Shown here piece by piece: positions 5,002 through 47,222 of a stretch of 64,000 bases of DNA. The position numbers and the translations under genes are program-made. Source of the stretch: Crambe crambe (taxonomy: Eukaryota; Porifera; Demospongiae; Poecilosclerida; Crambeidae); NCBI GenBank assembly GCA_963924555.1, contig OZ004591.1, forward strand, positions 1,798,001 through 1,862,000, in the 5' to 3' direction. How positions within the stretch are numbered: the stretch's first letter is position 1; the number at the start of each line of letters is the position of its first letter. Under the pieces are notes generated by a model. That model did no database searches, had not been told where the DNA came from, and saw only the letters and a program-made list of their open reading frames with translations.

Positions 5002-5421
5002 CTCGTGTCCAGCGAAGGATGGTTCTGGTCCTAATAATAGTAAGGACATTAGAAGTACTGCAAAGATACTGCCCATGGTAAAAAATACCTCCTGCTTAAA
5101 GTTATCTTTGGAGAAGCACTTAGTGTGCAGCACTAAGAATGAACTACCGGTATATGACGTTATCAATAGCGAATTAATTTTGCACGCATGTATATATATA
5201 TTGACACACCATTCCATAACTCACAAAAAAAAAACACTCCATCATTCCATATCAGCCCAAAATGTTTTATTAAATCAGGCTCAAGTTAGAGTAGTACAAC
5301 TACAACAAAAATAACAAATATTACTATACTTTGGAGTATGCTATAATACTTGTCTCATTGTGCTGCCTATGCAAAATGTGCATGTATGATAGTGCAGACA
5401 AAAGAAATAGGGCTACAGCTA

Positions 5422-6066
5422 TTAGTTACACTGAGAATAAGTATAGTCACCATGTGATGAATCAGACTGCTGATCACTAGCAGGTGCAGGTCTTTGTTTG
5501 TAGGCAGAGTTTTGAGAGAGAATGCAATCACCATGTGATGAATCAACTTCTTGACCACTAGCAGGTCCACCACCAGATGGCACTGTCTCGTATAAATCAA
5601 GACTTTCAGCTCTGAAAAAAGTAGCAAAATTAAATGCACTCTTTTATTCTTTAATTCATTTATCAAATGCAGTTCTCTGACTAACTATAGAGAGCAATCA
5701 GTAGCAATTTCCTAAATGTAAGATAGGTAACACTATATACCATTATATGCATGCGCATGCATGCACACTGCCTCTATAGCTATAGTCAGACACCTCAACC
5801 AAAGAAATACCATGGTTTTAATCTTCACTGTGCTCAGACTCTAAGGCCTATGAAGGTATTAGATTCCTAGGCTTCAGTGTCTAGAAGAGTGACTCACTTT
5901 TCTGATACTCTTGATGCGATGTTTCTCCTGTAGAGTACTGCTAGGACTACAATTACAAAGAATTGCACTATGATCACCACTGACATGGCCACTGTGATTC
6001 CAGTGACAGCTCCAACAGTAAACATTCTGCCACTTGTTCCTATACATATCATAATCAAATCCATAG
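5422..6066 (-). CDS. Membrane-helix exon and cytoplasmic tail exon of an Ig receptor
   Basis: Exon 6066-5898 encodes a short stalk (GTSGRMFTV), one hydrophobic helix (VTGITVAMSVVIIVQFFVIV then VLAVLY) and a basic stop-transfer RRN. Exon 5611-5422 encodes about 62 tail residues containing LDLYETV, NSAYKQ and DYTYSQCN, then TAA. The tail holds an internal duplication (two copies of SSHGD, each after a PAS-rich stretch). YETV fits a YxxV phosphotyrosine-type motif, but residue -2 is Asp, so it is not a canonical ITIM. The AG used by the copy at 53379 is lost here; the next AG upstream (ATTATTATTAG) adds seven codons in frame. The exon pair lies just past the 3' side of an 18.7 kb insertion and fits the Ig block at 24795-27447 by strand and phase. 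It could alternatively be all that remains of a separate gene. Confidence 0.68.
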
Positions 6067-9000
6067 CTAATAATAATGACAGCAAGAAATTTCAGGAGAC
6101 ATGGTGAGACTCCTTGTGCAATTGCTTACATGGTATAGCCATATACCCATAGCTGAACTCTATACCTTAAGACTATAGCTAGCTTTTATTGCACATAGCT
6201 AGGCATTTTTTTTTTGTTTTTTTTTTGTTTTTTTCCAAGACTCGACCGCATACTAAGTAGAAAAAAAACAGGCAATAAGTCTTTAATGTTGTTCACATTC
6301 TCTGGACCAGATAAACCATACACATGTTAACAACTCCCCGCACATGAGGGGAGTGTAGCTGTGGAGGGTGTACAGGATCCTGGCCATAACTAAATCACTA
6401 TTGAGGCCTATGATAGCACTTTGCACCCCTTGTAAGACACACCCCCACAACCGTGCCCCCAATCAAAATCTCTGGAGGTATAGCTAATTGCCCCTGAGCA
6501 CCATCACATTTTTCAGGGTACCATGTTACTTGGAGGAAGTGTCACAGGAAGGAACCAGGCAACTAGCCTGTACCTTCCCTCCAAGGACGTAGGATAATAG
6601 GTAACTTTAATACAAAACCAAATAGGATATTATACAAAAAGATATAATAAGTGACAAGACTGAGTAAGTACAACATAGAGGTGACATAATTCTTACTGGG
6701 CTGACTGGGAGACCAACATTTTTGAGAACTTTGCCAACTGAGCCTCACGTACAACTGATAAGCCTCACTCTTCCAGCGACCCAACATTTTAATGTGGACA
6801 TCAGAGATCCCAGCATCCTTTGCTGATGTGGCCATACCTATCCTAAAACTATGAGTAGAATACCCTCTGCTATCGATCTTAGCTTGCTGCAAACATTCAG
6901 CCACCATACGTAGCTGCAAATCAAGTACGAGTAAGGAATGATCCTCCCTCAAGGATAAAAAGAGGCCCTTGGTTGCGCCCCCCTGATCATTAGGTAAGAC
7001 ACCATGGCTGCAACTGGGCATATTTCTTCACCTGTTTTACCCAAATAGATATGAACACCCTGCCTGAATGGGTCTGTCTTGGATTGTTTGATGTGGATTG
7101 AATAACTGAGGGATTCACCTTATCATCTATCAATGTCCTCCAATGACAAGTGATGGGTGCTCGAGTCAAATTCTCTTTGAGATGGCACTATGAATTCACC
7201 ACACCTCAAAAACCCGAAGAAAGCTAAACAGCAGGCCGCCCAAAGTAAGGTGTTGTTATACTCTCCAGAATGGCCCTTCACAATTTCATGGATCCTGGCC
7301 AAAATATCTACTGTTATAGGTAGCCTTGTCCGCTTATTATTTTTTGCTGCATCCTCTTTTTTGATACCCCTTAGGACTTGATCCACCCTAGGCGTAAGCT
7401 GTTCAGAGAAAAACTTATGAAAACCTGCAGAAATGTGCAAATTGCGCACTGCTGATAGGTAAACTTTGATTGATGCATATGATACTCCGTCCTGGGCTAA
7501 ATAACTAATAAATGTGAGTAAGATATCTTCCGTAGTTGGGGAGTGCTTGTTGATTTGTGGAATTGCAAAATGTTAAATACCGTTTCTGCCCTGCTTGATA
7601 AGATTTTTGGGTTGAGGGAGCAAGACCCTGTTGATAGCTAATAGTGCTGAACAGCTGAGTGAAGGCTGGAGATGTCCAGTCTGGGCCTGTCATCGATACT
7701 ATCTCCAACAATTCGACTGGCAAGGGGGTTGGCAGTAGATCCACCTGCGGATTACAATGGAAAAAATGAGACATCTGATTCCTAGAAAGCTGGTCAGCTG
7801 TACTATTAAGCGACCCTGGGAGATGTTCAGCCTTCACTGTGATGTCAAAGCGTGCCACAAAAAACCACAAGGAACGGAGCAGATGCATGACCAGTGACTC
7901 CTTTGCTGACCCTTTTTGTATAGCTGCTACTACACTAGAGTTGTCACATTGGAAAAGAACTCTCTTGCGTGACATGCAAGGACCCCATACCGCACAGCTC
8001 AATACAATAGGACCTAGCTCCTTGGCCATTATGGCAATTAGACTCCATTCGCTGGGCCATTTCCATTGAAACCATCTGCCCTCAAAGAATGCAGCACATC
8101 CCCATGAGCCAGAAGCATCAGTTTGTATCACCAAATCAGCCCCTTCCCCTGCTGACACCACTTGAATAAAACTAATGCCATTCCATGACAAAAGAAAAGT
8201 ATGCCACCACAATAAGTCAGACCGAAATTCTTTGTTCAACCTTGTGAAATGGTCCAACTCCTTCACTTTTGCCACTGTCATGAACATTCTTCGAACAAAC
8301 GACCTCCCTGGGCGAACTACTTTGGCAGCATGTTGCAACAAACCGACCAAGGAAAGAATCTCACGTTTGGTGGCATTTTTCTTAGAAAGCCAACTCGCCA
8401 CCAACTCCTGAACCTTTATCAGCTTGACAGGAGGCAAACGGGCCTCCATCTGCCTTGAATCCAACTGAATACCCAGGAATACTAATGATGTTGTTGGGCC
8501 TTCTACTTTCTCCACTGCCAAAGGAATACCCAGCACCTTACAGACCTGCATGGATCAAGATATCCAAGTTGTGACCACAGACGAATGAATCAGGTGGGCC
8601 TAACATGAAGAAATCATCCAAATAGTGCAAAAGGTTAGTGACCCCCTGATCCTTAGCCACCCACTCAAGAAGATCAGCCAAAATATTGAATAGCTTGGGT
8701 GCTGAAGGCAGCCTGAAGGGTAGACAAGAATCCACAAAAACTTGACCCTTCCATTGCATGGCTAGCAAAATTAATGCCTATCTGCGGTATTAGCCTAAAG
8801 GCATTCCTGATATCAATTTTTGCCATTAAAGAACCCGGACCCGAAGCCACTAGCTGATTAATTGCGTCATCAACCCTGACATAAGTCATAGAGTAGAGTG
8901 CCTTTGGTATATCATCATTCACACTTCTCTGCTGCGGATGTGACAAATCAATTATAAGTCTCCATTTGTTAGGCTTGCCAGACTTTGGGATGACTCCAAA

Positions 9001-12000
9001 ACGACTGACATGGACCGGTGGAGATATCTCAAGTGGGAATGGACCAAGTACTCGACCATCCCTCCTCTCCTTAGCCAAATATTCCTCCACCACTTCTGGA
9101 TGTGCCAAAGCTGAACACATATTTTGCCTTGCTGTTGACAAATGTGTCGATAATGTCCTGTAGCCAACCCTAAACCCTTGTGCCATTCCCTGTAAGAAAA
9201 AGTTCGCTAGTGATCCGTCAGGATAACTCAATAACACCTGCCGCCACACAGAGAGGTTAAGAGGGGTCACGATTGGACAAGCCTTTAATGGCACCCGAAT
9301 TCTAGCTGGTTCAGACTGCACCCACCGAGTCCACTGGTCCAGCCAACACTGTATAAGTAGGCAAGGGAACTGAAATCCCATCATCATTAGGCAACATCTC
9401 CTCAATAGGCATTTGCACATCCACCCCCAATGAAGACTCTATACCTGCATGCGCACAAGTACAACAAGCAGTAAACACTTAAATAAGATCAGCATGATTT
9501 TCCCTACCATTAATATCAGAGAGCGCAGTAGCGCTCTCTATGTAGGGATGACCTATGACCCTCCATAAGACTAATACATAATGAAGTTGGATTTTCTCAA
9601 AAAGCAGTAAGTTGTAGCTGCTATGACTGCTTACCTTGCATTTTATACATATTCTTATCATGCAGGAGAATTTTGAAGGCTGAAACACTCAACACGGAAG
9701 AGCAATAAAAGCATGCATATTCATGATTTCTTATTCTTCATGTTCTTAATCATCATATTCTTCATAATAATGGCACGATCTGGAGAAAAATTGGGCCACG
9801 TTATGGGTATGTTCTATATATGAATATGTAGCATTTTACCAGTGTGGCATCGGTTGAGCCTCTAGTTCACTCAGAAAAAAAGCCGTTCTCTTAATACAGG
9901 GACAATACAACAAAGAAATTAAACATAACGCGCATGCGTAACAAACGATTTGTTGCCATTGCTTTCGTTTCTAAATAATGCACAATAATTATTGTCAACT
10001 CATTGGCAGCTTATGAGCACCAGTACCATTCACGCTGTTCTTACAGCTCTAGCTAATAGCTAGCTAGGATAACTTATCTCAGAGCTAGCTGCATTATTCT
10101 GTTCTATCTATGTATGCTTTTTGCTTCGATGAGGGCTGATCGCAGCTCAGCTAGTTAAATCGCCCAGCATTGCAACATAAGAGCTATGAATTTCATGAAA
10201 CAAGAATAGCTAGTTACCTAGTTGCCTCCTTCCCCCTACCACTCTATGAACTATCAGCATAATAAATAAGGAAAAAACAAACTATGTTAACTACTTCCTA
10301 TAAGAAATCAAAAAATCATAATCATAGATGCAGCACTAATGAATGACCTCCTGCAAAAGAATTTGATTTAAAAAAATTAAAAGAAATAAGTAAAGAAAAA
10401 AATATTAATGAAGGTCATGTAGGGATGACCATTTAACTGGTCAAAAAAGAGTTGGAACAAGAGCTGAATAGAGCAAGGATGAAGTCAAATCCGGGTGCAG
10501 TCACTCTTCATTATTAGGATAAATGTTTTTTTCTTTACTTGTTATATTACAAGTGAATGCAAAAATTTCTTAGAAATAAAAATGTGAAGTAGGGATGGCC
10601 CCAAATTTAGTACATAGCTATTACAACTGCAGCTTCATTATGAAACCAAGTTATATGCCCCAAAAATCTAGCTACACTGATGGGAGTGAAGTAGGAATAG
10701 TATCTCGTACTTGGTGATGGGTAAGGGATTACTTCACTAAGTTCACTCTCTTGCATGCAGTTATAGTACATATTCCAGCTAGATTTTGGGGCCATAGCTA
10801 CTGCTTTGATGTTGCAGTGCAGCTAGATTTTTGGGGCATATAACTTGGTTTCATAATGAAGCTGCAGTTGTAATAGCTATGTACTAAATTTGGGGCCATC
10901 CCTACTTCACATTTTTATTTCTAAGAAATTTTTGCATTCACTTGTTTCCATTCTTTTTCTTTGTGATTATGAAAATTGATAGATATTTAAGGTATAATGC
11001 TCCCTTGAACCAAATAGCTATATATTGATTTAATGATCAAATTTTGTAGTATTTCATTCTGCACCTTGAAGGATGATCATCTGCAGTGTAATGGAGTACC
11101 GAAAGGAGTGAACATTTTTAAGTGCAACAGCATTAGCTAATTATTACGTATGTGATCACTGAAATAATTATTGAGATGGTACGTATGTCTTGCTTGAGGG
11201 AGGAGAGTATGTGGGATGAGTTTATGCAGTGGCTGTGCATATTTGGTGTAGTGATTATAATTATAGTGGATGCCATCAAATGGCCACACCCCTGTGCAGG
11301 TGTATCATGAGGAGAAATGTGCTAATTTTTAGTGGCCCCGCCCCTTTTATGAGGTAATATCGCGATGTTTATTGCAATAATAAATTTAATCAGTCAGTTC
11401 TGCAAATGTATAAAGCAATTGGTATAATGAACTGAAATACTGAAATGCCAGGTTTACGCTTGCCTGGCGCCTTGAGATATTTTTCTGTTTCATGGGATAA
11501 TTGAGATGAAAGAGTAATGAGTTTTTGTAATGTTGCTGTTTGACTTACCTGCATCCACTTTCTAAGTATGGTAGTGGAAGTGCACTGGAAAAGAGAAGTA
11601 GCTGAGCTATGTATATGTAGGTGGAATAAGTGATTGTAATAATTATTTTGACTTACACGATCCACGCCAATAATTCAATTCTGCAATTTCATAAAGTGAT
11701 GAAATACGTAGTTAGTATCATAGGTATTCCATACTCACGAGGGAAGGGCATGAATCGTTGCCTCCTCCTCCCCCTCCTACCCCCTCAGTAGGGGGGGGGG
11801 GGGGGGGGGGGGGGAAGGGATATGGCAAAGGCACTGGATTGAGTAGAGTAACAGTGTTACATTTGGTGATGTGTGCAGATACCTGCATTACCAGTGGAAG
11901 GGGGAGGGTTTGTTATGTGCTCTTCAGAAATTCAAGTAAGAATAATTTGAGTATGTAATACAGTATTACCGCTCCAAGTTGGGGGAGGGGGGGGCAGGTG

Positions 12001-15000
12001 GTGGCACTGGATTTTTTCAATAAGAATGTTACATTTGTGATGTGTATCAGTATTACCAGTTGGGATACTTTGACGAGAGGTGGGAGGGGGAGCGGGATAT
12101 GGCAATGGCACTGGATTGCAGAAATTTAAGTAAGAATGTTACATTAATTTGAGTATGCAATACAGTATTATCGGTCCCTGTTGAGGGGGGGGGGGGGGGG
12201 GGGGGGGGGGGCAGGTGGTGGCACAACATAACCTATTTATTATCTTCCTCTTATGTAGGTACGTATAGTGCTGATGATCAACAATTAAAGAAATTAGTGT
12301 ATTATCCAATATCAAACTTTACAACAACAGCAATGTAGCTAATGACCTGTGTGCATGGCAGACTCCTAAAGTATTTTTACTTAAATCTGTCTAAAAGTAG
12401 CTACTCAAGAAATTTAACTTATACATTTCACATTATAGCATTAAGTAACTAAATCGCTAGAATTCTAGGCGCCTGAAATCAAAGTTCGTAGGCTCCAACT
12501 TTTCTAAAAATGCTTTAAGGACACAAACCATATCCATTAATAATTCAATCACCACCCCCTAATTAACATAACCACGCCCCAACCACACCTATATTAATGG
12601 AATGAATTGTGTGTTATAATTTTATACATGTCAATTTGCAAGCAGTCATGGCCAGAGGCACTGCTACAGCTGGTATGGCCATGGCCGTACCACCATTCAG
12701 CATGTGTGTATGCAATTTGAATAATAACAATGACTTTATAAGTTAGTATGTGGCATTGCCTAGATCATACCAGATATATAGAAATCGAATCAATTAAATT
12801 TTTTACTGGAGGGCTTCCCCCAGATGCATGGCCATACCAGTACAAATGAATGAGCTTGCTCTGGCTCTGGCAGTGCATGCACAACACTGACCTCACAGCT
12901 ATAAATAGAGCAGCTGACCTTGCACAGCAGAGCCTGAATTGCATATTGCTGTAACTACAACTTCAAGCTTACAGTTTTGAGTTTTCATATGTAGACAACT
13001 TTAAAGACAAACAATAGGGCAGTAGCAAGCCATTGAAGGACGAAGGACAAAGTCAAAAAATTAAGGACTGTCCTTCAGATTTGAAGCCTATGAAAGTTAA
13101 CACTGACAGGTTGGAGGCACTGGTATGATGAAGTGAGCAAACTGCACAGAGCTAAGTACTGATTATGTGTAGGATGAGAATCTGTACTGAGGAATGACTG
13201 AAACACAAGAAATAGCTAGCTGAAGTATAGATATCAAAGCTGAACAGCTCTAGCTAGTGCGCACCTATGTGGCCCCGCCCTTAAAATGGCGAAGAAAGAT
13301 TCCATAATCACTGAATTGTGAAATGGAACTGTAGTGAAAACTAATAGCAAAAGATCAGCCTCTAGGTGCCACTCTAACAGATGGCCCGAACAGAATTCTG
13401 ATGACTATAGCCAGTTAGTCAGTACGTCGATCTTATTATTACAGGTGAATGCAAAAAATTTCTTCGAAATAAAAATGTGAAGTAGGGATGCTATTATAAC
13501 TGCAGCTTCATTATGAAAACCAAGTACTGCAGCATCGAAGCAGTATGGCCCAAAAATCTAGCTGGAATATGTATTATAACTGCATGCAAGAGAGTGAACT
13601 TAGTGAAGTGACCCTTACCCATCATCAAGTACGAGATACTATTCCTACTTCACTCCCTTGGCCCTTGATCATGGGAGTGAAGTAGGAATAGTATCTTGTA
13701 CTTGATGATGGGTAAGGGTAACTTCACTAAGTTCACTCTCTTGCATGCAGTTATAATACATATTCCAGCTAGATTTTTGGGCCATACTGCTTCGATGCTG
13801 CAGTACTTGGTTTTCATAATGAAGCTGCAGTTATAATAGCATCCCTACTTCACATTTTTATTTCGAAGAAATTTTTTGCATTCACTTGTTTGCATTCTTT
13901 TTCTTTGTGATTATGAAAATTGATAGACACTAAAGGCTTCCTTGATTGAACTAAATTTTTCATTCTGTTCAGGGAGGAGAGTTTGAAGGATGATCATCTG
14001 CAGTGTAATGGAGTACTGAAAGGAGTGAACATTTTAAAAAGTGAACAGCATTAGCTAATTGTTACATATGTGATCACTGAAATAATTATTGAGATGGTAC
14101 GTATGTCTTGCTTGAGGGAGGAGTATGGGGAGTTTATGCATTTGGTGTAGTGATCATAATAGTGGATGCCATCAAATGGCCACATCCTGTGCAGGTGTTA
14201 TATGAGGAGAACTGCTATTAATTGCCCCACCCCTTTTATGAGGTAATATCGCGAAGATTTTTTTCATACAAGGCTGCAGCACATTATAGATAGCCCAGCT
14301 AGATTTTAGGCTATCCCTACTTAAACTTTTTATTTGAAGAAATTTTTTACGCTCACTTGTTTCTATCCTTTTTCTTAGTGCTTGAAGTTGAATGAGGGAG
14401 GCTACAGTACAGTAATATACAAAGCCAGCTCTACATAAACCTCTTTTGTAGGTACATACAGTGTCTCTGGTTGAAGAATTTGTTTAGCTATTTAAGTTTT
14501 GTTGATATAAAACTTTACAGCAACAGCAATGTAAATGACATGTACACGGCATGGTGAAGTGAGCTGACTACACTACAGTACTGGCTATAATGCTACTATA
14601 GGATGAGCATCTGTACTGTAATTCAGCAAGGAGTGACTGGAACATCATCAGATAATGAATGAAGACCTTGGCTATAGCTAAACTTAAGCTTACGTGGCTC
14701 CGCCCATAAGCCCCGCCCCCTTCAAAATGGCGTAGAAAGATTAGCAGCTGTGTTCCGAGTGCTATCGAATAGTGAAGTAGAGCCTTAGTCAAAACTAATA
14801 GCAAAAGATCAGCCTCTAGGTGCCGCTCTAACAGATGGCCAAAGCAGAATTTTGATGACTATAGCCAGTAAGTCGGTACGTCGATCTTATTATTATTATT
14901 ATCCTTATTATTATTATATTATTATTATTATAAGTGCAAAAAATTTCTTCTAAATAAAAAGGTTAAGTAGGGATAGCTTAAAATCTAGCTGGGCTATATA

Positions 15001-24000: not shown

Positions 24001-24627
24001 CTCTCACTACTGTCCCAAGTCAGATTATTGAAGCTGGAAGGCCACAACCTGATAAAAGACAGGAAATATTTCCATAATACAAGCAGTTGATTATGACCTA
24101 ACTGCTTTTTATCAGCTATTAATACAGATGATAGTTAAAGCTGACTAGATACTCACCTGAACCACATAATGCCTATATATGAGTCTCATCTCTGTCTGCA
24201 ATCAAGGCTTGCCGCTACAGGAGAAAGCTAATGAACTCTGCTTGCATGTGTTCTTAGATTGCATGGTAAAGATCGTCAGCATGGAGACAGTAGTACAATT
24301 AACGATGATAGTAAAGCTGACTAGATACTCACCTGAACCACATAATGCCTGTACACGCTGCTGCTTAGCAGAGTCTCATCTCTGTCTGCAATCAAGGCTT
24401 GCCACTACTAGTCTACAGGAGAAAGCTAAAGAACTCTGCTTCCACGCGTTTGTTCTTAGATTGTATGGTAAAGATTGTCAACATGGAGACGGTAGTACAA
24501 TTTCGGACCTGATGCGCAGTCCAAAACGAAGTAGAGTTAGGCGCTCTAAGTTAATAGCATGGAGAAGGACGAAGTTGCTTTAGAGATCCGTGATGGCAGC
24601 GAAGTACTGGGGAAGGATCGCGCTTTG

Positions 24628-24663
<36 letters not shown>

Positions 24664-30600: not shown

Positions 30601-30710
30601 CTCTTTCGAGGATCAACGAGTAGAAAAGATCGTAGTTGGTAGAATTTGGAGTGGATTTATCCAGAAATCATAGCTGTAGCTTGAGTGGTTCGAGAGATAT
30701 GGTTGTCTAA

Positions 30711-30743
<33 letters not shown>

Positions 30744-33700: not shown

Positions 33701-36700
33701 GTAGGGATGCTATTATAACTGCAGCTTCATTATGAAAACCAAGTACTGCAGCATCGAAGCAGTATGGCCCAAAATCTAGCTGGAATATGTATTATAACTG
33801 CATGCAAGAGAGTGAACTTAGTGAAATGACCCTTACCCATCATCAAGTACAAGATACTATTCCTACTTCACTCCCATGATCAAGGGCCAAGGGAGTGAAG
33901 TAGGAATAGTATCTCGTACTTGATGATGGGTAAGGGTCACTTCACTAAGTTCACTCTCTTGCATGCAGTTATAATACATATTCCAGCTAGATTTTGGGCC
34001 ATACTGCTTCGATGCTGCAGTACTTGGTTTTCATAATGAAGCTGCAGTTATAATAGCATCCCTACTTCACATTTTTATTTCGAAGAAATTTTTTGCATTC
34101 ACTTGTTCAATTAGGAAGCCATCTTTTCTATAATACGCATGCGCATGTATTTGAATATCCAATTATTCGAAATCATAATATTACTCAGCTGTCTCTAGCT
34201 AGCTAGCTAGCTCTAGCTGATGATAGACTACTGTATCGATTCGGGGATTTAGATTCACCACGGTAGACTCTATTTCAGCATCTTCGACCTCCAAGTATGG
34301 CTCAACAACACAACACCTTGACTCGATAAATGATTGGGCTGGTATGCTATTGGAGAACTTCTTTCATCTGTCCCTGCATACACATAGAAGAATGAACTCT
34401 AATCATAGCTAAAACCATAAAAGAGAGGAAAAAAGACCAGGAACAAGTAAGGGAAAAAGCATTTCGTGAAATGAAAAAAAGATGTAGGGATGACCACTGC
34501 TCAAAAAAGTAAGGAAACAAGAAGGATGGAAATGGGATCAATCTTTGTTCTGTATATCCAGCCAACAATCCCTACATATACGTCAGGTAACTTCAGATTA
34601 TAGTGTAGTAATGTGTGTATATGTAGGGATTGTTGGCTGGATATACAGAACAAAGATTGATACCATTTCCATCCTTCTTGTTTCCTTACTTTTTTGAGCA
34701 GTGGTCATCCCTACATCTTTTTTTTCATTTCACGAAATGCTTTTTCCCTTATAATAATAATAATAATAGAGAAGAAGAAGAATATAGCGATTTACCTGCT
34801 TGCCGTATTTCTGAAACGGTAAGTTCCCTGGTCCTGAAACTTGGTCTGCACATTGTAGTAGGCTCTAGTAGGCTGGATAATCATTCACAGTAGCTTTTGT
34901 TAGGTCTAAGTGGGGGAACTAGAATTTCACTTTAGTATTAGTCTATAGGCAGCGCGCGCGGCCGTCCGAGTCATCCCTACATAGAGAGTGCTACCACACT
35001 CTCTGATAAGGCCACTATTTATAGAATCCTAGTTTCCTGTCCAAGAAAATATCCACAAGTGCTGCGGGCGGGCGGTTATTATAATTATTCTATTACTGCT
35101 TCGTTGTTTGTCTCAAGGGTCCTGTCTTCATCATTCACTAGTCTCGCGGCCCACGAGACTAGTCATTCACCACGGGCTTTCCCAAAAAGAGCTGCATGTG
35201 AAGCCAAATGTGCGCACTCTACTGCGCGCATGAGCAATGGCAGGCGCTATAGGCAGTAATAATTTTTGATGCGGTGACATTTTCAATACGCGGGCAGTGG
35301 ACAGGAAACAATCATTCTATTAATAGTGGCCTAATAGAGAATCCAGCGATTTACCTGCTTGCTGTATTTCTGAAACGGTAAGCTCCCTTGTCCTGAAACT
35401 TGGTCTGCACATTGTAGTAGGCTCTAGTAGGCTGGATAATCATTCACAGTAGCTTTTGTTAGGTCAAAGTGGGGGAACTAGAATTTCACTTTTGTATTAG
35501 TCTATAGGCGGCGCGTGCAGCCGTCCGAGTCAGACTGGAAAAATAGAGAAGAGTACGGGATAAGGTACCATGGGCTGGAGAATCCCACTCAAAACGGGGT
35601 TGTTGGACAGTCTGAAAGTGCTCTCGAGGACTACATTCGAACCTCTGTTATGTTACAGTATAACCATCTTAATCATTGAAAGCATTATGGGTAGTGTGTG
35701 AGAGCATTAGAGAAAGGAATTATAGGCTCAAAAAAAAAAGAATTATTTATTTGGGCCTGCTGACTGGGCCTTACCATTTTTTGTGCAAGACAACAAGTGT
35801 CAATCAGAGGTATGAAAGATGATATGCACTAATTACTAGTGTAGAGAGTAGAGCTACTGAATTACTAATTAGTGCTTTGATGTAAACTTCTATAGTCTCA
35901 CATGTACCAGGCCAGTATTTTTAAGTGGCAATAATGTATAAGTTTAAGGTGTCCAGTAGTCCATTCCAGTCCAGCAGTGAATTCAGACAACAATGAAGAT
36001 CAGGAGTAAACCAAGAGTATTGGAGCTAGAGTTAGCTACGTAACAAAAAAGCTAGCTAGCTACATAGACTGTGTATCTTAAATCTTGAATCAGCTATTTC
36101 ATTATCATAGTGAAGTCTACTCCATCTAAGTCGCTTCAGTCCTTCCAGGGTAAAGTGCTGACTTGATTGCATGGGCACTTGTTTTGAGTTACCGTGGTGA
36201 GGTAAGCATATCACCCACGCTCATTAAATATCACGCTGTTTGTGACGTCACTCATGTGATAAGTTTTACTTATTTTTCTTCTTCTTCTTCAATTTGGTAC
36301 TTTACTAATGAGAGTAGTCTGGTGCACGCGACCCCCCGGAAGAAATCGGGAGGGTCTGATGACCCATATATACATGTTTGGTGATCCTGGAATGTAATTA
36401 CTACCACTTACCACGGTCTGGTTAGTTTATATTCCAGTACTAATTAGCAAATAAAACTTTGCGCAGTGGAATGTTTGCACAATTGCTAGCATACAGTGGG
36501 CACTAGCTACTCTTCTAGTTTAGCTATTATAGGCTACAGGTTACCCTCGAGGCTAGGTCAGTTCCAGGTTTGAAAGCAGTCATCCATGAAGTAGCCTCTT
36601 CTCTAAAAAGTTGCAGCAAGAAGAAAGCATACGTACTTCACTTTGCAAGAGGGAACGATGTGCTTGTTTCCCCCACAGCCTCAGGGTTTGGTAAATCTGT

Positions 36701-37395
36701 CCTATAATTATAGCTATCCTGATCGTCTTCGTGGGATTCGCACTGCACATTGCGCTAACATTTATCAGTGCCCATGCAATTAATGAAAAACCACAGTCAT
36801 TTCATAGGCAGTACATAATTTATATGCTTACCTATGAATCATGGGTAAGGTCACCAAACAGGTCACCAGACCCTCTTGATTTTTTTTTTTTTTTTTTTTT
36901 GGGGGGGGGGGGGGGGGGTCGCACACGCCAGACTATGAGAGAGGAAGACCTGGGAATGAGGCTAATTGTTGTGTATTTGTGTCTTAATATTGCTTGGCAC
37001 ATGGCTATGTTTTAGCCAAGTTTATCTATGAACCTGGACTGAGGATTTGCAATTGTAGTGCTTTTCATTAGCAATGTAAACACCACTTAAATGTCACCTG
37101 TCAGTGACAGGTACACACAATGGTTATATTAAAGGAATAAATTGTTTCCTGTCCACTGCCCACATACTGAAAATGTCACTGCCATGTTTGGAAAATACCG
37201 GCTTCACACAAACAGCTCTTTTGGGAAAGCCCATGGTGAATGATGAAGACAGGACCTTTGAGACAAAACAATGAAGCAATAAGAAAATAACCTCCCGCCA
37301 GCAGCTGCTAGTATTGGAACCCTATCTAGCTATGCACTATCTGATTCTTCAGTATACAGGGCAGGGATTGATGCAGGATTTTTTTTTTGCTTGGT

Positions 37396-37429
<34 letters not shown>

Positions 37430-40400
37430 ATTGTATGGAAGACATGTATGCTGAATGTCAGATCTGTGTTAGGAGCTTATTATCTATACTGTAATTTTGT
37501 GCTTGCCATCCTACATTTGTCTGAATTCTTATTGTTATCAAGACATGCATATTAAACTTTCCTGCTGAGTGACTCAGTCTCCTATAGCTATGTTGTTCCC
37601 ACCAGTTGCTAAGCTTTAACAAACTGCACTGCTTACAGTGCTCAGTGCCCAGTGCTGATCAGGGATGTGGTTATTGAAATGGGTAAGGCTATATTTTCAA
37701 TGGGAATAGTATCAATATATTGTAGTGGGGGGGGACACTCTAGGTTTGGAGCAGGTTTTCATGACCTCTGTATTAGCAGGGGAAAATATTGAAACTCAGT
37801 GCAGTTTGAGGTTGGAGACTCTGCAATGGACCTTGCTAGACTACTATAGATCTAAATCACAAAATGCACAGCAGCGTATGCGTATTAATTGCAGAGAGTG
37901 AGCTGACTCTCACGTCATGACTCATTGAAAATTTTGAAATATATCTATGTCTATCTACAGTCCAAAATGCCCCAGGCGTATGTATGTGTCGTGCAATAGT
38001 AGCGCCCTGCGTGTGCATTTATGGCATGTTCCAATTGTAATTGCTTGATCGATTTCTACATCGCTTTGTTTATAGCATGGTGGATAGTAGGGTTAGGCTT
38101 ATCTAAGTGGATTGTAGGCATTAGACATATCTAAGTGCTTTGTGGTAAGTACTTGCTTTCTATGCATGCAGCTGCCTGCCACTTACATAACTCAACAGCA
38201 AAGCATAAATCAACTATCAGCTCAACATTTCTACAGCCTTTTCTGGCGTGCGCAGCCAGCCCCAGGCACTTCCGGAACTCCAGCATAAGGGTCTGGTAAC
38301 ACACAATACTTCGACTTGTTCCCGGCCTAAATTTTTTAGTTACGTAATATGACGTTTTAGTGTCGTAAAATTACGTTGACCAGTTTAATTGTCATAGCAA
38401 CACATCTCGTGCGCCTAATGATCCCGTAATAATTATGGTTGTTATAGCTACCACGAGTCATTAAACGTCATAATGCATCAGTTAATCATATTCATCGTTT
38501 TAGCAGGATTTCTGCTAAACGGGAACAAGTCGAAGTATTGTGTGTTACTAGCCTTGCGCCAGGCTCTCAGGAAGGGGAAGGGGGAAGGAAAAAGAGAGCC
38601 TGGTTGCCACTGTCTGCGCATGCGCTGATTTTTTAAGCCACGAATCACCACACGCGTGCTATGTTAGTCATAAAACGTCATTTAAACATGGTTTCGACCA
38701 CGAGGGTTTGTCGTTTGTAGTGAACAGCAATAAAAGTGTCCTCATCTTGGGTAACACTACTGCAATGAAGAAGCAGTGGGTGACAATCCTTGTTTCGAGG
38801 GCGAAAAGGACAACTGAGCAGTAGTAGACATTTTGAGCAACAATGTACTTTGACCTATAACGTTTAGTGTTGCGGACATGTACAGGCAAGTATCCGGATT
38901 CCACAAAATCGCGGAAAAATCAGCGCATGCGCAGACAGTGGCAACCAGGATCTCTTTTCCTTCCCCCTCCCCCTTCCTGAGAGCCTGGCACGAGGCTATG
39001 TGTGTTACCAGACCCTTGCGCTGGAAGTGCCTGGGGCTGGCTATGCCAGACTAAACACTAGGCTTATCTAAGTACTGTGAGGTAAGCACAGGGGCGGATC
39101 CAGGATTTTGAATGGGAAAATTTTGGCCTAGCCACGCCCACTTTTCTTAACCACGCCCTTTTGCGCCCACTTGATGTTTGAACAAGAGAGTCTTTATCAA
39201 CAATTCTCATTATTGCTAATGCAGACAATCTTGTGGCATGCTGTTAGATATACCAGCTAATACAAACCATTGTGGGTGGCATGCTGTTGAATAGGGTATA
39301 CAAACATGCACTAAGTAATAGATAAAGCATGTGCGTGAGGTTTCTGGTTGATTTAGTGCACCGTAGCCCGAGGGCTGCAGGCCCGAGGGATGGTGCACTA
39401 AATCAACCAGAAACCGAGTGCACATGTTTTATCTATTTTAGGGCCGTCCCAATTATTCTATTTTTTTAACCTATTATTCTATTCAGAATTTCCCTCTAAA
39501 TGCTCCTATTATTCCCAATGATTCCCCCATTATTCTCAATCAAAATTATAAAATTAGTGCATGGGTACAAAAACCAGTTGGGACTCGAGAGTCAGCGATT
39601 AGCTATACTGTAACATCAATGAGGTCTCTATAGTCTTCGAGTGAAGAAGATTGTCTCTGAGTGAAGCAATTCTGTAAAAGAGAAAATACTCGTTCAGCAG
39701 CAGCAGAGCTCGGTCATGAGTATCAATGGAAGCTGCTGCTGGTTTCAGCCATGAGAGTCATGACCCACCATGTGTCATGTGAGCAGATAATTGGCTTTAA
39801 TTATTTGAAAGGCCCATTAGGCTGGAATAATTCTGTTATTCTTGCAAGCACCAAAATTATTCTGGAATAATTGGGACAGCCCTAATCTATTTTAGATCCC
39901 ATTGCGCATGCGCGTAGCTACTGTAGTCCATAGTTACAAACATCAGTACTGTTTGGTTTGCTATAGCTAGCTAATTGCTGTCTCCACTTCTTTCTTGAGT
40001 TGTGAAATAGTTTAGTATTGTGCCTGAGGGCCAACAGGGCCAACGCTGCAATAACAAAGTCTAGACAACCAGCTAGTAGGTAGGGATGCGTCGATTATGC
40101 TAGCACAAATTCAGGAATAACAGGACAGCAAAAGAATCCAGAATAAGTCAGGAATAATTAGAGAGAAATATTGAATAAATCATGTGATGTCGACACATGG
40201 CTATAAATGATGTTGCTATGAAAACATTGAAAGTGATGTTTTAGACATAGGATGTTTTTCCCACACAATTAACAATGTTGGGGAGCATTTTAGAGTGCCA
40301 TTGGTTGCAGAATTCTTCACTTCATGGATGGCTCTCTTCTCACATAGTTCAAAAGCCAAGTTCCTGTGGAAAGAGCTAACAGGAAAAGCAATGGCCTCAT

Positions 40401-41789
40401 ACAGTGCTACAAGATGGTGGTCGAAGTGGGAGATTTTTAATCAGCTTTTGGTCCAGTTTGGGGATATTGAGCCCTTCTTACGTATTAATAGCGATCTTGG
40501 ACCTGTGTCTCGACAAAAGTTGGTGAAAACCTTTGAAGATGCACAGAAACTCCCTCTCCTCAAGCTGGAACTTGCTTCTATTGTTGACTGGGGGAAAGTT
40601 TTTGTGGAAGCTACTTACATACTAGAGGGAGATGGTCCCTTAGCATTTACTTGCTATGAAATTATGCAGACCATAGTCTCAGCTATTCAAGTGGCGAATA
40701 CATTCAATGTTGATGCCATCGTAAAGAGTATCTCTCCACTCCCAACTGTTCAGCAACAACTTAAATCATATTCCAGGAGTTGCATACAACCAGGTTTGGA
40801 CTATTTCAACAATCACCTTCACAGTAGTTTAAAAACACCACTAGCAGCTTTTAAAGCTGCCCTACTCTTATGCCCACACAAAGTCAACTCTCTGAAGCCA
40901 ACTTCATCTGATGTGGATTCTCTAGAAATCTTTCCTTTTATTTCACCCACCAGTCATATACCTGCCTTAAAGGAGGAACTTGCTACCTATCTGTCTAAAG
41001 CAGATGGAGTGGATATAACTGTCGATACCCTTCAGTGGTGGAAGCAGTACGAGTCATCTATACCTGCTTGGGCTGCTTCAGCAAAGAAAGTCCTCACAGT
41101 ACAACTTTCATCAGCAGCTGCCGAATGTGTTTTTTCTATTTTAAATTCTTTTAATGATCAACAGGACAACAGTTTACAGGATTATATAGAAGCCTCTGTT
41201 ATGTTGAGATTTAACCGGTCAGCTAGCTAGCTATACTGCATGATATTCGGAGCATAATTCTGGGAATAATTCGTAATTTTTAAATGGAATAATTATAATT
41301 TTTTAAAGAATTGCCAGAAAGAATATTGGGTAAAAATTTGAGCATAATAGACTCATCCCTACTAGTAGGGGTAGTTCGTTCGAATACAATGAGTATTCCC
41401 TAGATCTGCCACTGAAGCATTACAGTTTTCTATGTATGCAGCTGCCTGCCAACTTACATATAAAACTCACATCAAAGTCTTCTAGCTAAGGAGAACAGCT
41501 ATCAGCAAGCCTATAGGAATACTTAATTGCTTGCTCGCTTGCTGTGACTCAAATGTTGTACATTGCCCTAGTAATAATTCTTTTGGGAAGGTTCTTAGAC
41601 ACTCATATTCAGTGCTGTGGAGCTCTATATTAAAACTGAAATACGGCGTCCGATTATAGGTAGTTTCTGATTATTGGCAACCCGATTACTAGCTAGCATA
41701 GCAGTGAACTCACTCTCGTGTCCGGCGAAGGATGGTTCTGGTCCTAATAATAGTAAGGACATTAGAAGTACTGCAAAGATACTGCCCAT
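5422..41789 (-). CDS. Ig-superfamily transmembrane receptor, proposed 36 kb gene with ten dispersed exons
   Basis: Proposed exons, in transcript order: 41789-41714 (signal peptide), 27447-27115 (Ig1), 26966-26364 (Ig2 plus a third two-cysteine region), 26295-26011 (Ig4), 25945-25598 (Ig5), 25494-25295 and 25240-25147 (Ig6, split), 25079-24795 (Ig7), 6066-5898 (membrane helix), 5611-5422 (tail, stop TAA). Lengths sum to 2583 bases, 860 residues plus stop; every junction keeps phase and each exon is bounded by AG/GT. The same order occurs compactly in the copies at 1-5076 and 48321-53526. Likely role: type I cell-surface adhesion or recognition receptor. Intron 1 (14.3 kb) and intron 8 (18.7 kb) are filled with mobile elements. 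Exon joining over these distances is inferred from order, strand, phase and intactness; the three exon clusters could instead be remnants of different copies. Confidence 0.5.
6180..6560. other. Intergenic/intronic stretch, T-rich
   Basis: Contains T runs (6210-6235) and no ORF or repeat that I recognise. Homology to the last Ig intron ends near 6150. Confidence 0.4.
6563..7449 (-). CDS. Tyrosine recombinase portion of the YR retroelement (fossil)
   Basis: Shows the phage-integrase fold signature: an Arg within FFGFLRCGEF, a HSFRIG box and the nucleophile Tyr in GRWKSEAYQLYVR. In this group the enzyme circularises and inserts the cDNA. Fossil; not intact. Confidence 0.72.
7505..9420 (-). CDS. 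Reverse transcriptase/RNase H portion of the YR retroelement (fossil)
   Basis: Runs from fingers/palm motifs (SRFGVIPKSGKPNKWRLIID) through the YLDD motif to RNase H (DLVIQTDASGSWG) and the linker toward the recombinase. The sequence style (LPPVKL, KREILSLVGLLQHAAKV) is typical of DIRS-like elements. Fossil; not intact. Confidence 0.78.
9510..9690 (-). mobile_element. Diverged 'E' terminal unit with hairpin end
   Basis: Begins with the hairpin AGAGCGC-AGTA-GCGCTCT and TGTAGGGATG, the same terminal design as the units at 17280-17975, in reverse orientation. Confidence 0.5.
9720..10548. other. AT-rich intronic stretch, nothing recognised
   Basis: No convincing ORF, RNA gene or terminal repeat; some AGCTAGCT tracts near 10040-10080. 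Confidence 0.35.
10549..10945. mobile_element. Foldback element, F family
   Basis: Ends ACAAGTGAATGCAAAAA / TTTTTGCATTCACTTGT, followed inward by a small ATTTC...AAAT hairpin and GTAGGGATG. About 397 bases with imperfect inner arms. Confidence 0.65.
10946..13440 (+). repeat. Diverged 'U-body1' repeat copy with long G runs
   Basis: Holds the U segment (TGATCATCTGCAGTGTAATG at about 11073) and a body1 end (GGCCCCGCCCTTAAAATGGCG near 13270). Between them are three G-rich blocks: uninterrupted G runs of about 26-30 bases near 11790-11815 and 12186-12211, and a shorter one at 11980. No gene seen. Confidence 0.5.
13441..13889. mobile_element. Foldback element, F family
   Basis: 449-base near-perfect palindrome; outer ends GTGAATGCAAAAAATTTC, then a TTC hairpin and AGTAGGGATGC; the centre has TTCCTACTTCACTCCC on each arm. 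It follows an ATT microsatellite. Confidence 0.75.
13890..14931 (+). repeat. U segment, half H-foldback and body1
   Basis: U segment 13980-14260; right half of an H-family foldback 14262-14375 (AGCTAGATTTTAGGCTATCC); body1 14376-14931 with GC boxes and AAAATGGCG at 14696-14735, ending in an ATT microsatellite. Confidence 0.6.
14932..15183. mobile_element. Foldback element, H family
   Basis: 252-base palindrome: AAGTGCAAAAAATTTC, small hairpin, AAGTAGGGATAGC, arm, AACAATCCCTAC, loop, then the mirror image. The variant GTAGGGATAGC is constant on both arms. Confidence 0.75.
15184..15792 (+). repeat. Body1 repeat
   Basis: Starts after ACTTGT with a pyrimidine tract ending in TTCTTAG. GC boxes and AAAATGGCG lie at 15559-15620. 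Ends GTCGATCTTATTATCC plus an ATT tract. Confidence 0.6.
15793..16235. mobile_element. Foldback element, F family
   Basis: 443-base near-perfect palindrome, inverted relative to the copy at 33660-34106 and part of the same larger inverted duplication. Confidence 0.75.
16236..17280 (+). repeat. U segment, half H-foldback and body1
   Basis: Second copy of 13890-14931; promoter-like GC boxes and AAAATGGCG at 17063-17110; ends in ATT tract. Confidence 0.6.
17280..17975 (+). repeat. Head-to-tail array of 'E' units
   Basis: Three units of about 240 bases start AAAGAAAAAGAACGAAAAGT. The first two end CATCCCTACTTAGAGAGTGC-TAC/TAG-GCACTCTCTGATTATTAT. An extra terminal hairpin alone (17760-17798) precedes the third unit, which is cut short. 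The ATT tail sits directly after each hairpin. Confidence 0.7.
17976..18890 (+). repeat. U segment and body1
   Basis: U from 17976, remnant of the H-foldback near 18255-18335, then body1 with GC boxes and AAAATGGCG at 18677-18720, ending in an ATT tract beside the next foldback. Confidence 0.55.
18891..19199. mobile_element. Foldback element, A family
   Basis: 309-base palindrome: ACAAGGGAAAAAGCATTTCG, TGAAATG (small hairpin CATTTC-GT-GAAATG), GATGTAGGGATGACC, arm of about 90 bases, AACAATCCCTACATATAC, loop of about 45 bases, mirror image. Arms appear identical except for terminal trimming. Confidence 0.8.
19200..19735 (+). repeat. Body2 repeat
   Basis: Always follows an A-family foldback. 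It starts TCCTGGTCTTTTTTCC and includes a GCTA repeat, an NRF1-like TGCGCATGCG and AAGATGGCTTCC at 19500-19530, then ends in an AAT microsatellite. Other copies: 30206-30720, 31440-31965 and, reversed, 34107-34442. Confidence 0.6.
19736..19975 (+). repeat. 'D' terminal unit
   Basis: Starts GAAGAAGAAGAATATAGCG, has a GC-rich GGCGGCGCGCGCGGCCG tract and ends GTCATCCCTACATAGAGAGTGC-TACC-GCACTCTCTGATAA. Confidence 0.65.
19976..21435 (+). repeat. Second 'D' unit, split by a 1236-base insertion
   Basis: D sequence before 20147 and after 21382; joined directly to the next E unit at GCACTCTCTGATAAAGAAA. Confidence 0.65.
20147..21382. mobile_element. Unclassified 1236-base DNA transposon with 5-base target duplication
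   Basis: Ends GTAGTGATACCGG / CCGGTATCACTAC, flanked by TATAG on both sides. Other D copies show the uninterrupted target CTATAGGCGG. An inner inverted repeat (CCATCCAGTAGA near 20250; TCTACTGGATGG near 20403) is present. No ORF above 83 codons, so non-autonomous; superfamily not assigned. Confidence 0.75.
21436..21915 (+). repeat. Two 'E' units in tandem
   Basis: Both end with the AGAGAGTGC...GCACTCTCT hairpin preceded by CATCCCTACT. Confidence 0.65.
21920..22190. other. Unassigned AT-rich stretch
   Basis: No feature recognised. Confidence 0.3.
22191..23060 (-). mobile_element. Fossil ORF1 (gag-like) of a YR retroelement
   Basis: Minus-strand protein pieces include GAGLPPVPQKLVNKIQAGEF, VEMAELLPDRLRV and a Cys/His cluster (FPGCKYLHICLHC). 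This pattern is typical of ORF1 in DIRS-like elements. It is broken. It may belong to the same family as 6560-9480 but is separated from it by 12.7 kb of repeats. Confidence 0.6.
23061..24126. other. Unassigned stretch
   Basis: Contains A-rich (23338-23384) tracts and scattered CpG sites; no supported gene. Confidence 0.3.
24127..24500. repeat. Tandem duplication of about 180 bases
   Basis: Two copies of a segment with TAAAGCTGACTAGATACTCA (24136 and 24312) and TCTCATCTCTGTCTGCAATC. On the minus strand each copy carries CAGGTGAGTA, a perfect donor-like site, suggesting a duplicated leader exon of an unknown gene. Confidence 0.5.
24559..24640 (+). other. Possible start of an unrecognised coding exon
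   Basis: A CpG-bearing stretch leads to ATG and MEKDEVALEIRDGSEVLGKD, then runs into an ATTT microsatellite (24628-24662). The amino acid composition looks coding, but there is no homology I know and no continuation. It could be a truncated first exon. Confidence 0.2.
24628..24735. repeat. ATTT microsatellite and T-rich tract
   Basis: Nine ATTT repeats followed by T-rich sequence; marks the edge where homology to the other Ig loci ends. Confidence 0.7.
24795..27447 (-). CDS. Seven-domain Ig ectodomain exon block, open in all exons
   Basis: Seven exons encode about 716 residues of extracellular Ig-like domains. Conserved Cys/Trp cores are visible: Ig1 LPCGV, VKWF and FHCEA; Ig2 ALECDF, IRWF and YHCEA; third region LDCRF and TIDCN; Ig4 YTCAV, VTWYY and YQCFA; Ig5 SVQWSLNG with NYFATF in place of the usual second cysteine; Ig6 LTCEL and YSCV; Ig7 LLCEI, VTWRF and YTCFA. 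Many NxS/T glycosylation sites are present. Ig6 is interrupted by a 54-base phase 0 intron (25241-25294). Unlike the copies at 1-5076 and 48321-53526, no exon here carries a frameshift or stop. Homology to those copies ends in the intron after Ig7 (about 24775) and, on the other side, near 29040, so the signal peptide and membrane exons are not adjacent. Confidence 0.82.
27448..29040 (-). other. Intron 1 of the Ig gene, part shared with the other copies
   Basis: Matches introns at 3161-3990 and 49500-50319, with two extra blocks (27585-28200 and 28265-28530) absent there. Homology stops near 29040 at the start of the repeat array. Confidence 0.55.
29085..29595 (-). repeat. Body3 repeat
   Basis: Carries CACTCTCTATGTAGGGTTAG at its outer end and an ATC microsatellite (29306-29328). 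On the minus strand it follows the G-family foldback and shares that foldback's variant GTAGGGTTAG. Confidence 0.5.
29596..29891. mobile_element. Foldback element, G family
   Basis: 296-base palindrome: ACAAGTGAAAGGAAAAAAAT, small hairpin ATTTA-TGC-TAAAT, GTAGGGTTAGTC, arm, AATAATCCCTAC, loop, mirror image. Confidence 0.8.
29901..30205. mobile_element. Foldback element, A family
   Basis: Same design as 18891-19199, adjoining the G-family element with only a nine-base ATAATTAT-type gap. Confidence 0.75.
30206..30720 (+). repeat. Body2 repeat
   Basis: Copy of 19200-19735, with AAGATGGCTTCC near 30540; ends in AAT microsatellite. Confidence 0.6.
30742..31439. mobile_element. Foldback element, A family, split by a MITE
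   Basis: Arms at 30742-30994 and 31386-31439; the inserted element is 30995-31385. Confidence 0.75.
30995..31385. mobile_element. MULE-type MITE, 391 bases
   Basis: Inverted ends of about 65 bases starting TAGCCTCGTCCCCAGGCCCC, with a nine-base duplication TGGTCATCC on both sides. Uninterrupted A-family foldbacks give the empty site. The long inverted ends and nine-base duplication fit Mutator-like elements. Confidence 0.8.
31440..31965 (+). repeat. Body2 repeat
   Basis: NRF1-like TGCGCATGCG and AAGATGGCTTCC at 31757-31790. Confidence 0.6.
31966..32386 (-). repeat. D unit and partial body2, reversed
   Basis: D hairpin end at 31968-31990, D body to about 32218, then the tail of body2 to 32386. 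The adjoining body2 copies point towards each other. Confidence 0.6.
32387..33655 (-). repeat. E unit, body1, half H-foldback and U segment, reversed
   Basis: E 32387-32625, body1 to about 33165 (GC boxes and CGCCATTTT at 32787-32830), half H-foldback 33170-33285, U to 33655. Confidence 0.6.
33660..34106. mobile_element. Foldback element, F family
   Basis: 447-base palindrome; inverted partner of 15793-16235. Confidence 0.75.
34107..34442 (-). repeat. Body2 repeat, reversed
   Basis: Begins at GCCATCTTTTC with CGCATGCGCATG next to it; abuts the F foldback rather than a D unit, a junction not seen elsewhere in the window. Confidence 0.55.
34443..34750. mobile_element. Foldback element, A family
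   Basis: Near-perfect palindrome with ACAAGTAAGGG end; right end abuts an AAT tract. Confidence 0.75.
34765..35530 (+). repeat. D units flanking a Harbinger-type MITE
   Basis: Complete D unit to 35009; a second D unit 35335-35530 lacks the terminal hairpin. Confidence 0.6.
35010..35331. mobile_element. PIF/Harbinger-type MITE, 322 bases
   Basis: Ends GGCCACTATT / AATAGTGGCC with TAA on both sides, as expected for Harbinger (three-base TWA target). Related sequence lies at 37130-37310 and 63790-63990. A 27-base hairpin ACTAGTCTCG/CGAGACTAGT sits inside. Confidence 0.7.
35535..36204. other. Unassigned intronic stretch
   Basis: No ORF or repeat recognised; some GCTAGCTAGC tracts near 36050. 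Confidence 0.3.
36205..36262 (-). other. Relic of Ig receptor intron 1, empty site for the TA MITE
   Basis: Reads CCCACGCTCATTAAATATCA then CGCTGTTTGTGACGTCACTC, matching 4650-4663 joined to 4815-4860 with a single TA. It is in the same orientation and order as expected for intron 1 of the 36 kb gene. Confidence 0.65.
36263..37089. other. Unassigned stretch with T20-G18 run
   Basis: Poly-T followed by poly-G at 36880-36918; otherwise nothing recognised. Confidence 0.35.
37395..37428. repeat. Long poly-G run
   Basis: More than 30 consecutive G; the inverted partner is the C run at 63665-63687, shorter there. Confidence 0.8.
38242..39050. mobile_element. Outer foldback MITE holding a nested MITE
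   Basis: Ends TCTGGCGTGCGCAGCCAGCC / GGCTGGCTATGCCAGA with long inverted arms (CCAGGCACTTCCGGAACTCC). It is split by the element at 38549-38998. Confidence 0.6.
38549..38998. mobile_element. MULE-type MITE, 450 bases, nested
   Basis: Ends TAGCCTTGCGCCAGGCTCTC / GAGAGCCTGGCACGAGGCTA, duplication TGTGTGTTAC on both sides. Same group as 30995-31385. The copy at 62168-62617 is the same insertion carried by the inverted arm. Confidence 0.75.
39340..39420. repeat. Perfect hairpin
   Basis: Stem GGTTTCTGGTTGATTTAGTG CACC with loop GTAGCCCGAGGGCTGCAGG; absent from the other arm. Confidence 0.55.
39439..39884. mobile_element. hAT-type MITE, 446 bases
   Basis: Ends TAGGGCCGTCCCAATTATT / AATAATTGGGACAGCCCTA with the 8-base duplication ATCTATTT, exact on both sides. 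Confidence 0.75.
40081..41361 (+). mobile_element. hAT transposon, internally shortened, 1281 bases
   Basis: Inverted ends TAGGGATGCGTCGATTATGC / GCATAATAGACTCATCCCTA (18 of 20 matching) with an exact 8-base duplication CTAGTAGG. The inverted arm near 61735-61742 has one CTAGTAGG and no element. It carries only the C-terminal half of a transposase, so it depends on another copy for movement. Confidence 0.85.
40295..41230 (+). CDS. hAT transposase, C-terminal part
   Basis: 311 residues. The N-terminal part matches the ribonuclease-H-like region after the catalytic core (SYSATRWWSKWEIFNQLL). The C-terminal part is the hAT dimerisation domain: LQWWKQYESSIPAWAASAKK, VQLSSAAAECVFSILN and MLRFN. 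The BED zinc finger and first catalytic Asp are missing, since full hAT transposases exceed 600 residues. The frame is open, so the loss is by deletion rather than slow decay. ATG choice is arbitrary. Confidence 0.8.
   Translation: MPLVAEFFTSWMALFSHSSKAKFLWKELTGKAMASYSATRWWSKWEIFNQLLVQFGDIEPFLRINSDLGPVSRQKLVKTFEDAQKLPLLKLELASIVDWGKVFVEATYILEGDGPLAFTCYEIMQTIVSAIQVANTFNVDAIVKSISPLPTVQQQLKSYSRSCIQPGLDYFNNHLHSSLKTPLAAFKAALLLCPHKVNSLKPTSSDVDSLEIFPFISPTSHIPALKEELATYLSKADGVDITVDTLQWWKQYESSIPAWAASAKKVLTVQLSSAAAECVFSILNSFNDQQDNSLQDYIEASVMLRFNRSAS
41714..41789 (-). CDS. Signal peptide exon of an Ig receptor (proposed exon 1 of the 36 kb gene)
   Basis: The exon opens with ATGGGCAGTATC and encodes MGSIFAVLLMSLLLLGPEPS followed by FAGHE, a clear signal peptide with a hydrophobic core and small residues before the cleavage region. 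It is 76 bases long (phase 1) and ends at a GTGAGT donor. It is the same length and nearly identical in sequence to the exons at 5076-5001 (minus), 48321-48396 and 61320-61395 (plus). The next exon downstream on this strand with matching phase is Ig1 at 27447. Just upstream of the ATG the flank carries a CRE-like TAACGTCA before the MULE insertion at 41889. It could also be an orphan exon left by the inverted duplication. Confidence 0.6.
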
Positions 41790-45596: not shown

Positions 45597-45639
45597 GCCC
45601 TCCAGCTCCCTTACAAATTAATTGCCTTTTAATTTTGCG

Positions 45640-47220: not shown

Positions 47221-47222
47221 AC

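Follow-up and report, generated by a model that had tools for sequence, protein, structure and literature searches.

In the window, by which we mean the whole 64,000-nucleotide stretch of Crambe crambe DNA that was analysed, copies of an immunoglobulin (Ig) superfamily receptor gene are present, which are called A, B, C and D here. The model of copy B consists of ten exons on the minus strand, which lie in three clusters (41789-41714, 27447-24795 and 6066-5422).

41714-41789, minus strand: exon 1 of B, start codon and predicted signal peptide, 76 nt; homologous exons at 5001-5076 (A), 48321-48396 (C) and 61320-61395 (D)
27115-27447, minus strand: exon 2, Ig domain 1, 333 nt (Pfam I-set, 4.7e-08)
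26364-26966, minus strand: exon 3, Ig domain 2 and a third segment without a Pfam Ig match, 603 nt
26011-26295, minus strand: exon 4, Ig domain 4, 285 nt (Ig_3, 1.4e-14)
25598-25945, minus strand: exon 5, Ig domain 5, 348 nt (I-set, 3.7e-05, 24.1 bits against a cut-off of 23.7)
25295-25494, minus strand: exon 6, first part of Ig domain 6, 200 nt
25147-25240, minus strand: exon 7, second part of Ig domain 6, 94 nt (exons 6 and 7 joined: Ig_3, 4.3e-10)
24795-25079, minus strand: exon 8, Ig domain 7, 285 nt (I-set, 4.1e-15)
5898-6066, minus strand: exon 9, transmembrane segment, 169 nt (Kyte-Doolittle value of window 767-785, 3.04)
5422-5611, minus strand: exon 10, cytoplasmic tail and stop, 190 nt

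All nine introns of this model have GT-AG borders, and the spliced product of 2583 nt comprises 860 codons and a single stop, which is terminal. The strand, order, openness and exact phase of the three clusters, as described in the first-pass annotation, were reproduced. An exon 9 acceptor at 6040 instead of 6066 was rejected, as it would make the exon 26 nt shorter and break the frame. Phase 1, the usual intron border of Ig modules, was found in seven of the nine introns. We cut the ectodomain at exon or mid-exon borders into seven candidate segments, six of which gave an Ig profile match with E < 1e-4; in the second half of exon 3 the Pfam profile search found no Ig match. Hydropathy windows of 19 residues with a Kyte-Doolittle value above 1.6 begin only at residues 1, 3, 4 and 755-774, and by these windows the protein has a predicted N-terminal signal peptide and one transmembrane helix. 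The tail extends about 73 residues past the helix and contains four tyrosines (805, 835, 854 and 856). We also noticed an internal repeat of about 57 nt in the tail exon (5422-5611), 79% identical, which results in two similar tail stretches.

Among the solved structures closest by sequence (best 60 of 202), titin, Robo2, DCC (two) and DSCAM were in the top five, followed by contactins. B has tandem I-set-like Ig domains, as do adhesion-type Ig receptors (Robo, DCC, DSCAM, contactin-like); it differs from them in its short tail and in that no non-Ig domain was found above the Pfam cut-off, and the matches are at the level of domains only. A role in adhesion or recognition would be suggested by the domain type alone. 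When the B protein was compared with viral and genome contig sets, there were 7 and 20 pattern matches, respectively, none of which was confirmed by tblastn.

The other copies lie on both sides of B.

1-5170, minus strand: compact copy A, damaged, its 3' end beyond the window
48271-53601, plus strand: compact copy C, damaged
59337-64000, plus strand: inverted duplicate of blocks of the 5' region of B (within 37103-47503); the duplication as a whole (37103-47503 and 59252-64000) flanks copy C
61320-61395, plus strand: exon 1 of copy D, identical to exon 1 of B at 76 of 76 positions; the rest of D would fall beyond 64000

Read in the frame of B, copies A and C have three lesions in common: exon 3 has lost 10 nt, exon 4 carries a TAG close to its end, and exon 8 has gained 1 nt. 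In addition, exons 2 and 3 of A contain further stops and its exon 5 has an 8-nt gap, and exon 4 of C shows a deletion of 10 nt and an insertion of 6 nt. At 53358, C apparently has no AG at the position of the exon 9 acceptor of B, which is possibly another lesion. No exon 10 of C was found in the window, nor did the sequence search reveal any second copy of exon 10 there, and this exon, having no partner, entered none of the comparisons. Copy C is followed by an open stretch of 103 codons (53745-54056), in the place that an exon 10 could be expected to occupy, but this stretch did not match exon 10.

Over the same seven noncoding regions, A and C differ at 11 of 1223 positions (0.9%) and B and C at 91 of 1033 (8.8%, exon-1 flanks included); intron 5 was left out of these regions, as A has extra bases there. 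These lie at 729-1153, between exons 5 and 6, where A is about 420 bases longer than C, and about 80 bases of C are matched on both sides. The exons of A and C differ at 41 of 2135 positions, a count inflated by the first bases of exons 3 and 6 of A, which align poorly. It follows from the three common lesions and the low divergence that the shared lesions predate the duplication that gave rise to A and C. That the other copies in the window are damaged, as had been stated, is correct for A and C, but the fourth copy, D, had been overlooked. B and D differ by 65 substitutions in 4457 alignment columns in six blocks (1.5%), counted without a 136-bp terminal-repeat row and an internal row of 65% identity. 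The A-C and B-D divergences are similar; a single event may have produced both pairs, or they may reflect unmerged haplotypes. Between C and D there is also an LTR-type element (54747-59249) with an integrase domain, whose terminal repeats, each about 0.3 kb long, are 90.8% identical; its coding region shows up as several separate ORFs.

Neutral decay was simulated starting from the coding sequence of B, with 2000 runs per setting and with indel rates and a frame-breaking share of 75% that were assumed, not estimated. The dS between B and A is 0.12, half of which is 0.06. With branches of 0.03-0.06 substitutions per site, the whole coding sequence stayed free of lesions in at most 0.95% of runs, ranging from 0.95% (branch 0.03, 0.05 indels per substitution) down to none of 2000 (branch 0.06); at a branch of 0.02 the values were 0.5% and 4.25%. 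An intact frame in B is thus improbable under neutrality. Exons 2-8 alone were lesion-free in 0.15% of runs and in none of 2000, whereas exons 9-10 alone were open in 31% (branch 0.03) and 9% (branch 0.06). Since exons 9-10 are often open by chance, an open third cluster says little on its own, and the argument rests mainly on exons 2-8.

The pairwise dN/dS ratios were 0.51 for B-A, 0.53 for B-C and 0.73 for A-C, the last from few changes. Between B and C the ratio exceeds 1 in exon 3 (1.74) and exon 9 (1.68), so that constraint is uneven; exon 7 gave no value because of a zero divisor. Because the comparisons are with pseudogenes (A and C) and lack an outgroup, these ratios are not assignable to the B branch. 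For exon 3, where 39.5 nonsynonymous and 7.5 synonymous changes separate B and C, positive selection is not claimed, because C is a pseudogene.

The first two clusters of B are separated by an intron in which pieces of the compact intron can be recognised.

27448-41713, minus strand: enlarged intron 1 of B, 14,266 bp
41573-41713, minus strand: intron-1 relic, 5' end of the ancestral intron, E 2e-35 with C
36203-36259, minus strand: intron-1 relic with the empty MITE site, two abutting matches with C, E 3.6e-06 and 0.004
28531-29016, minus strand: intron-1 relic, 43 of 482 positions substituted relative to C
40081-41361, plus strand: hAT element in intron 1, perfect 8-bp target-site duplication (TSD) CTAGTAGG at both ends, terminal inverted repeat (TIR) TAGGGATG; the site is unoccupied in D

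Introns 1 and 8 measure 14,266 and 18,728 bp in B and 1,923 and 318 bp in C (borders as delimited in this analysis), which agrees with the enlargement noted before. When intron 1 of C was compared with that of B, seven matches at E ≤ 0.001 were obtained; six of them are on one strand and in the correct order (41713-41573, 36259-36225, 29016-28531, 28264-28205, 27579-27548 and 27487-27448), and the seventh, which crosses a G run, has the opposite orientation. Similarly, all six matches of the A intron are in order. It is clear that the ordered relics reported in the first-pass annotation are real. Many G-run matches and a 24-nt repeat (E 0.004, at several places in both introns) exceeded the cut-off and were not counted; an exception was made for the E 0.004 match abutting the relic at 36.2 kb, which was checked by eye.

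A palindromic, TA-flanked MITE is present in A and C, and B runs straight across its site at 36.2 kb. This relic is therefore best understood as genuine ancestral intron sequence that predates the insertion of the MITE. The hAT element has a Dimer_Tnp_hAT domain (Pfam, 1.1e-10, 41.6 bits against a cut-off of 21.4), and a TSD of 8 bp is expected for hAT elements. Unoccupied sites could in principle represent precise excisions, and insertion was adopted as the simpler reading. Copy D has blocks in common with intron 1 of B, four between 37103 and 40080 and a stretch beside exon 1; part of the enlargement is therefore older than the B-D duplication. The noncoding flanks of exon 1 of B differ from D at 2 of 185 positions, from A at 9 of 164 and from C at 11 of 175. 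They are of the B/D type, and on this ground a stray exon 1 of A or C at 41.7 kb was rejected. The descent of exons 1 and 2 of B from one compact gene is well supported by the relics, the empty MITE site, the hAT target-site duplication and the divergence.

The second and third clusters are separated by an even longer intron.

6067-24794, minus strand: enlarged intron 8 of B, 18,728 bp, of which the ends alone match the compact intron
6563-9438, minus strand: retroelement pieces in intron 8, one ORF being RNase H-like and another possibly encoding a tyrosine recombinase

The first 19 nt (weakly, E 0.011) and the last 73 nt or so (E 1.4e-06) of intron 8 match those of C in place; no internal relic of the compact intron was found within it, the scattered weak matches having E ≥ 0.2. 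The transmembrane exon with its flanks (5818-6143, about half coding) differs from C at 32 of 299 positions, which resembles B elsewhere (8.8%, noncoding) and is unlike A (0.9%, noncoding). The transmembrane and tail exons lie directly upstream of exon 1 of A, which is the expected place of the 3' end of B in a tandem array. By this position and by its divergence from C (32/299 as against 11/1223 noncoding and 41/2135 exonic differences between A and C), the transmembrane exon was rejected as part of copy A. The link between exons 8 and 9 is moderately supported by strand, order, phase, intact splice sites, divergence and the intron ends, a thinner support than that for exons 1 and 2. The earlier proposal of one gene split by transposons is therefore upheld with good support at intron 1 and with moderate support at intron 8.

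It is at intron 8 that the main rival to a single gene has to be weighed. The clusters could come from one ancestral gene and now end separately: transcripts would end behind exon 8, yielding a secreted ectodomain and leaving the transmembrane and tail exons (6.0-5.4 kb) stranded. Read-through past exon 8 adds 15 residues before it meets a stop, and some 130 nt beyond that exon, at 24629-24663, lies an (AATA)n run containing 7 overlapping AATAAA motifs. However, this run is a simple repeat, AATAAA occurs 27 times on the minus strand between 5300 and 41800, and exons 9-10 are open, with GT-AG borders and matching phases. There is also a precedent for misjoining: in the available portion of PMC3691228, Botryllus fuhc is described first as one spliced gene model and later as two neighbouring genes, one secreted and one membrane-bound, which serves as a warning for the gene model of B. 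The fuhc locus, a chordate one that is likened to B here by its partial description, has extracellular Ig domains in one of the neighbouring genes and a splicing pattern that was at first misjudged. Altogether, we regard the separate ending of the clusters as unlikely.

A further possibility was considered, in which B is not one gene and exon 1 or the transmembrane exons would come from other, lost copies of the array or would have been joined by mis-assembly of diverged haplotypes. The locus is a repeat-rich array with inverted duplicates, and A-C (0.9%) and B-D (1.5%) are close enough for haplotypes to be conceivable. Nevertheless, the window contains no N, the collinear relics and the empty MITE site tie exon 1 to exon 2, the divergence of the transmembrane exon fits B, and no exon 9 or 10 other than those of B was found on the minus strand of the window. 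That B is not one gene is, in our judgement, highly improbable.

Upstream of exon 1 another transposon is found.

41889-45596, plus strand: Mutator-like element (MULE), 3,708 bp, with TIRs and a 9-bp TSD (8 of 9 matching); the site is unoccupied in D

It matches the Pfam MULE profile (3.6e-07, 31 bits against a cut-off of 27.6), a TSD of about 9 bp is expected for MULEs, and it terminates 99 bp upstream of the ATG of B. The suggestion that B may be the functional copy is plausible, given the unbroken frame of B and the damage in A and C. D, however, has an equal claim, and the MULE lies just before the start codon of B; B would be a candidate functional gene, though not the sole one. B could even be a freshly dying copy, the main working gene being D or a copy beyond the window, which we consider rather unlikely. 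D has an identical exon 1 and contains neither the hAT nor the MULE insertion, and the 3.7-kb MULE parts the ATG of B from its former upstream DNA, whereas the 2583 nt of B are free of frame and splice lesions and the body of D is outside the window. A dying gene may still be spliced whole, so this possibility overlaps both with a single spliced gene and with separately ending clusters, and their probabilities are not exclusive.

Among the retroelement pieces at 6.5-9.4 kb, which by motif may be DIRS-like, RVT_3 was above the Pfam cut-off (4.8e-05) and the recombinase N-terminal domain below it (0.014); Pfam searches of 8677-9438 and 6566-7027 gave no match. Repeat coverage, defined as sequence with another match of at least 100 bp inside the window, was 60% for intron 1, 49% for intron 8 and 60% for the whole window. 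As the values for the introns do not exceed that of the window, they are not singled out, and coverage adds no support.

Repeats of at least 150 bp shared by introns 8 and 1 form 15 inverted rows, covering 7,960 bases of intron 8, and 11 direct rows, covering 2,441 (the rows overlap). In the longest inverted pair, 15792-17516 matches 34101-32385 over 1.7 kb at 97.7%. The repeat mosaics at 13441-17516 and 32385-34106, in opposite orientation, were seen to be 97-98% identical over 1.5 and 1.7 kb. The block of exons 2-8 enclosed by these introns is 2148 nt long, a length divisible by three, and its two ends have the same phase. Circular RNA formation is facilitated by reverse-complementary repeats, according to the accessible part of PMC8516420. 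Conceivably, pairing of the repeats in the pre-mRNA could lead to back-splicing of exons 2-8 and so to a circular RNA whose frame is nowhere interrupted, or recombination between them could invert the ectodomain block and make a switchable receptor, but we look upon this as a long shot.

The reading that we prefer, and hold to be fairly probable, is that the ten exons of copy B make up one gene, which codes for a type I membrane receptor of the Ig superfamily, has introns 1 and 8 enlarged by transposons, and is probably transcribed and spliced whole. In descent from a compact ancestor similar to A and C, repeated insertion of transposons would have lengthened intron 1 from about 1.9 to 14.3 kb and intron 8 from about 0.3 to 18.7 kb. 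B would be transcribed from about 41.8 kb as one pre-mRNA of 36 kb, from which introns 1 and 8 would be spliced out. Insertions that spare splice sites are tolerated, and for this reason B is probably still transcribed and spliced. The product may be displayed on the membrane as an Ig-string receptor with a short tyrosine-containing tail, where it could bind a ligand.

The Hydractinia Alr complex consists of clustered single-pass Ig-superfamily genes, many of them likely pseudogenes, as far as the available text of PMC11067881 goes. The B locus is alike in its clustered Ig-superfamily single-pass layout and its damaged copies, a likeness drawn from that partial description on the one side and from one sequence on the other. 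Allorecognition receptors of the Alr/fuhc type are marked by high allelic polymorphism, on which fusion or rejection depends. No published work naming the B gene was found, as judged by titles and abstract openings, and the main text of a sponge grafting paper (PMC5450542) contains neither 'immunoglobulin' nor 'Ig domain' nor 'receptor'.

Transposon-enlarged introns grow by insertion with the splice sites left intact. B is similar to genes of this type, with nothing qualitatively different; transposon-enlarged introns beside dead tandem copies are an already known kind of arrangement, and the enlargement is an ordinary event. If B is transcribed whole, annotation pipelines that expect short introns could break it into fragments or overlook it, and in its place annotate the compact copies that are damaged. 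The insertions can be placed in ordered steps, with the MITE entering the ancestor of A and C, part of intron 1 enlarged before the B-D duplication, and the hAT element and the MULE inserted in B only. With its steps ordered in this way, the locus is a small readable case of intron growth.
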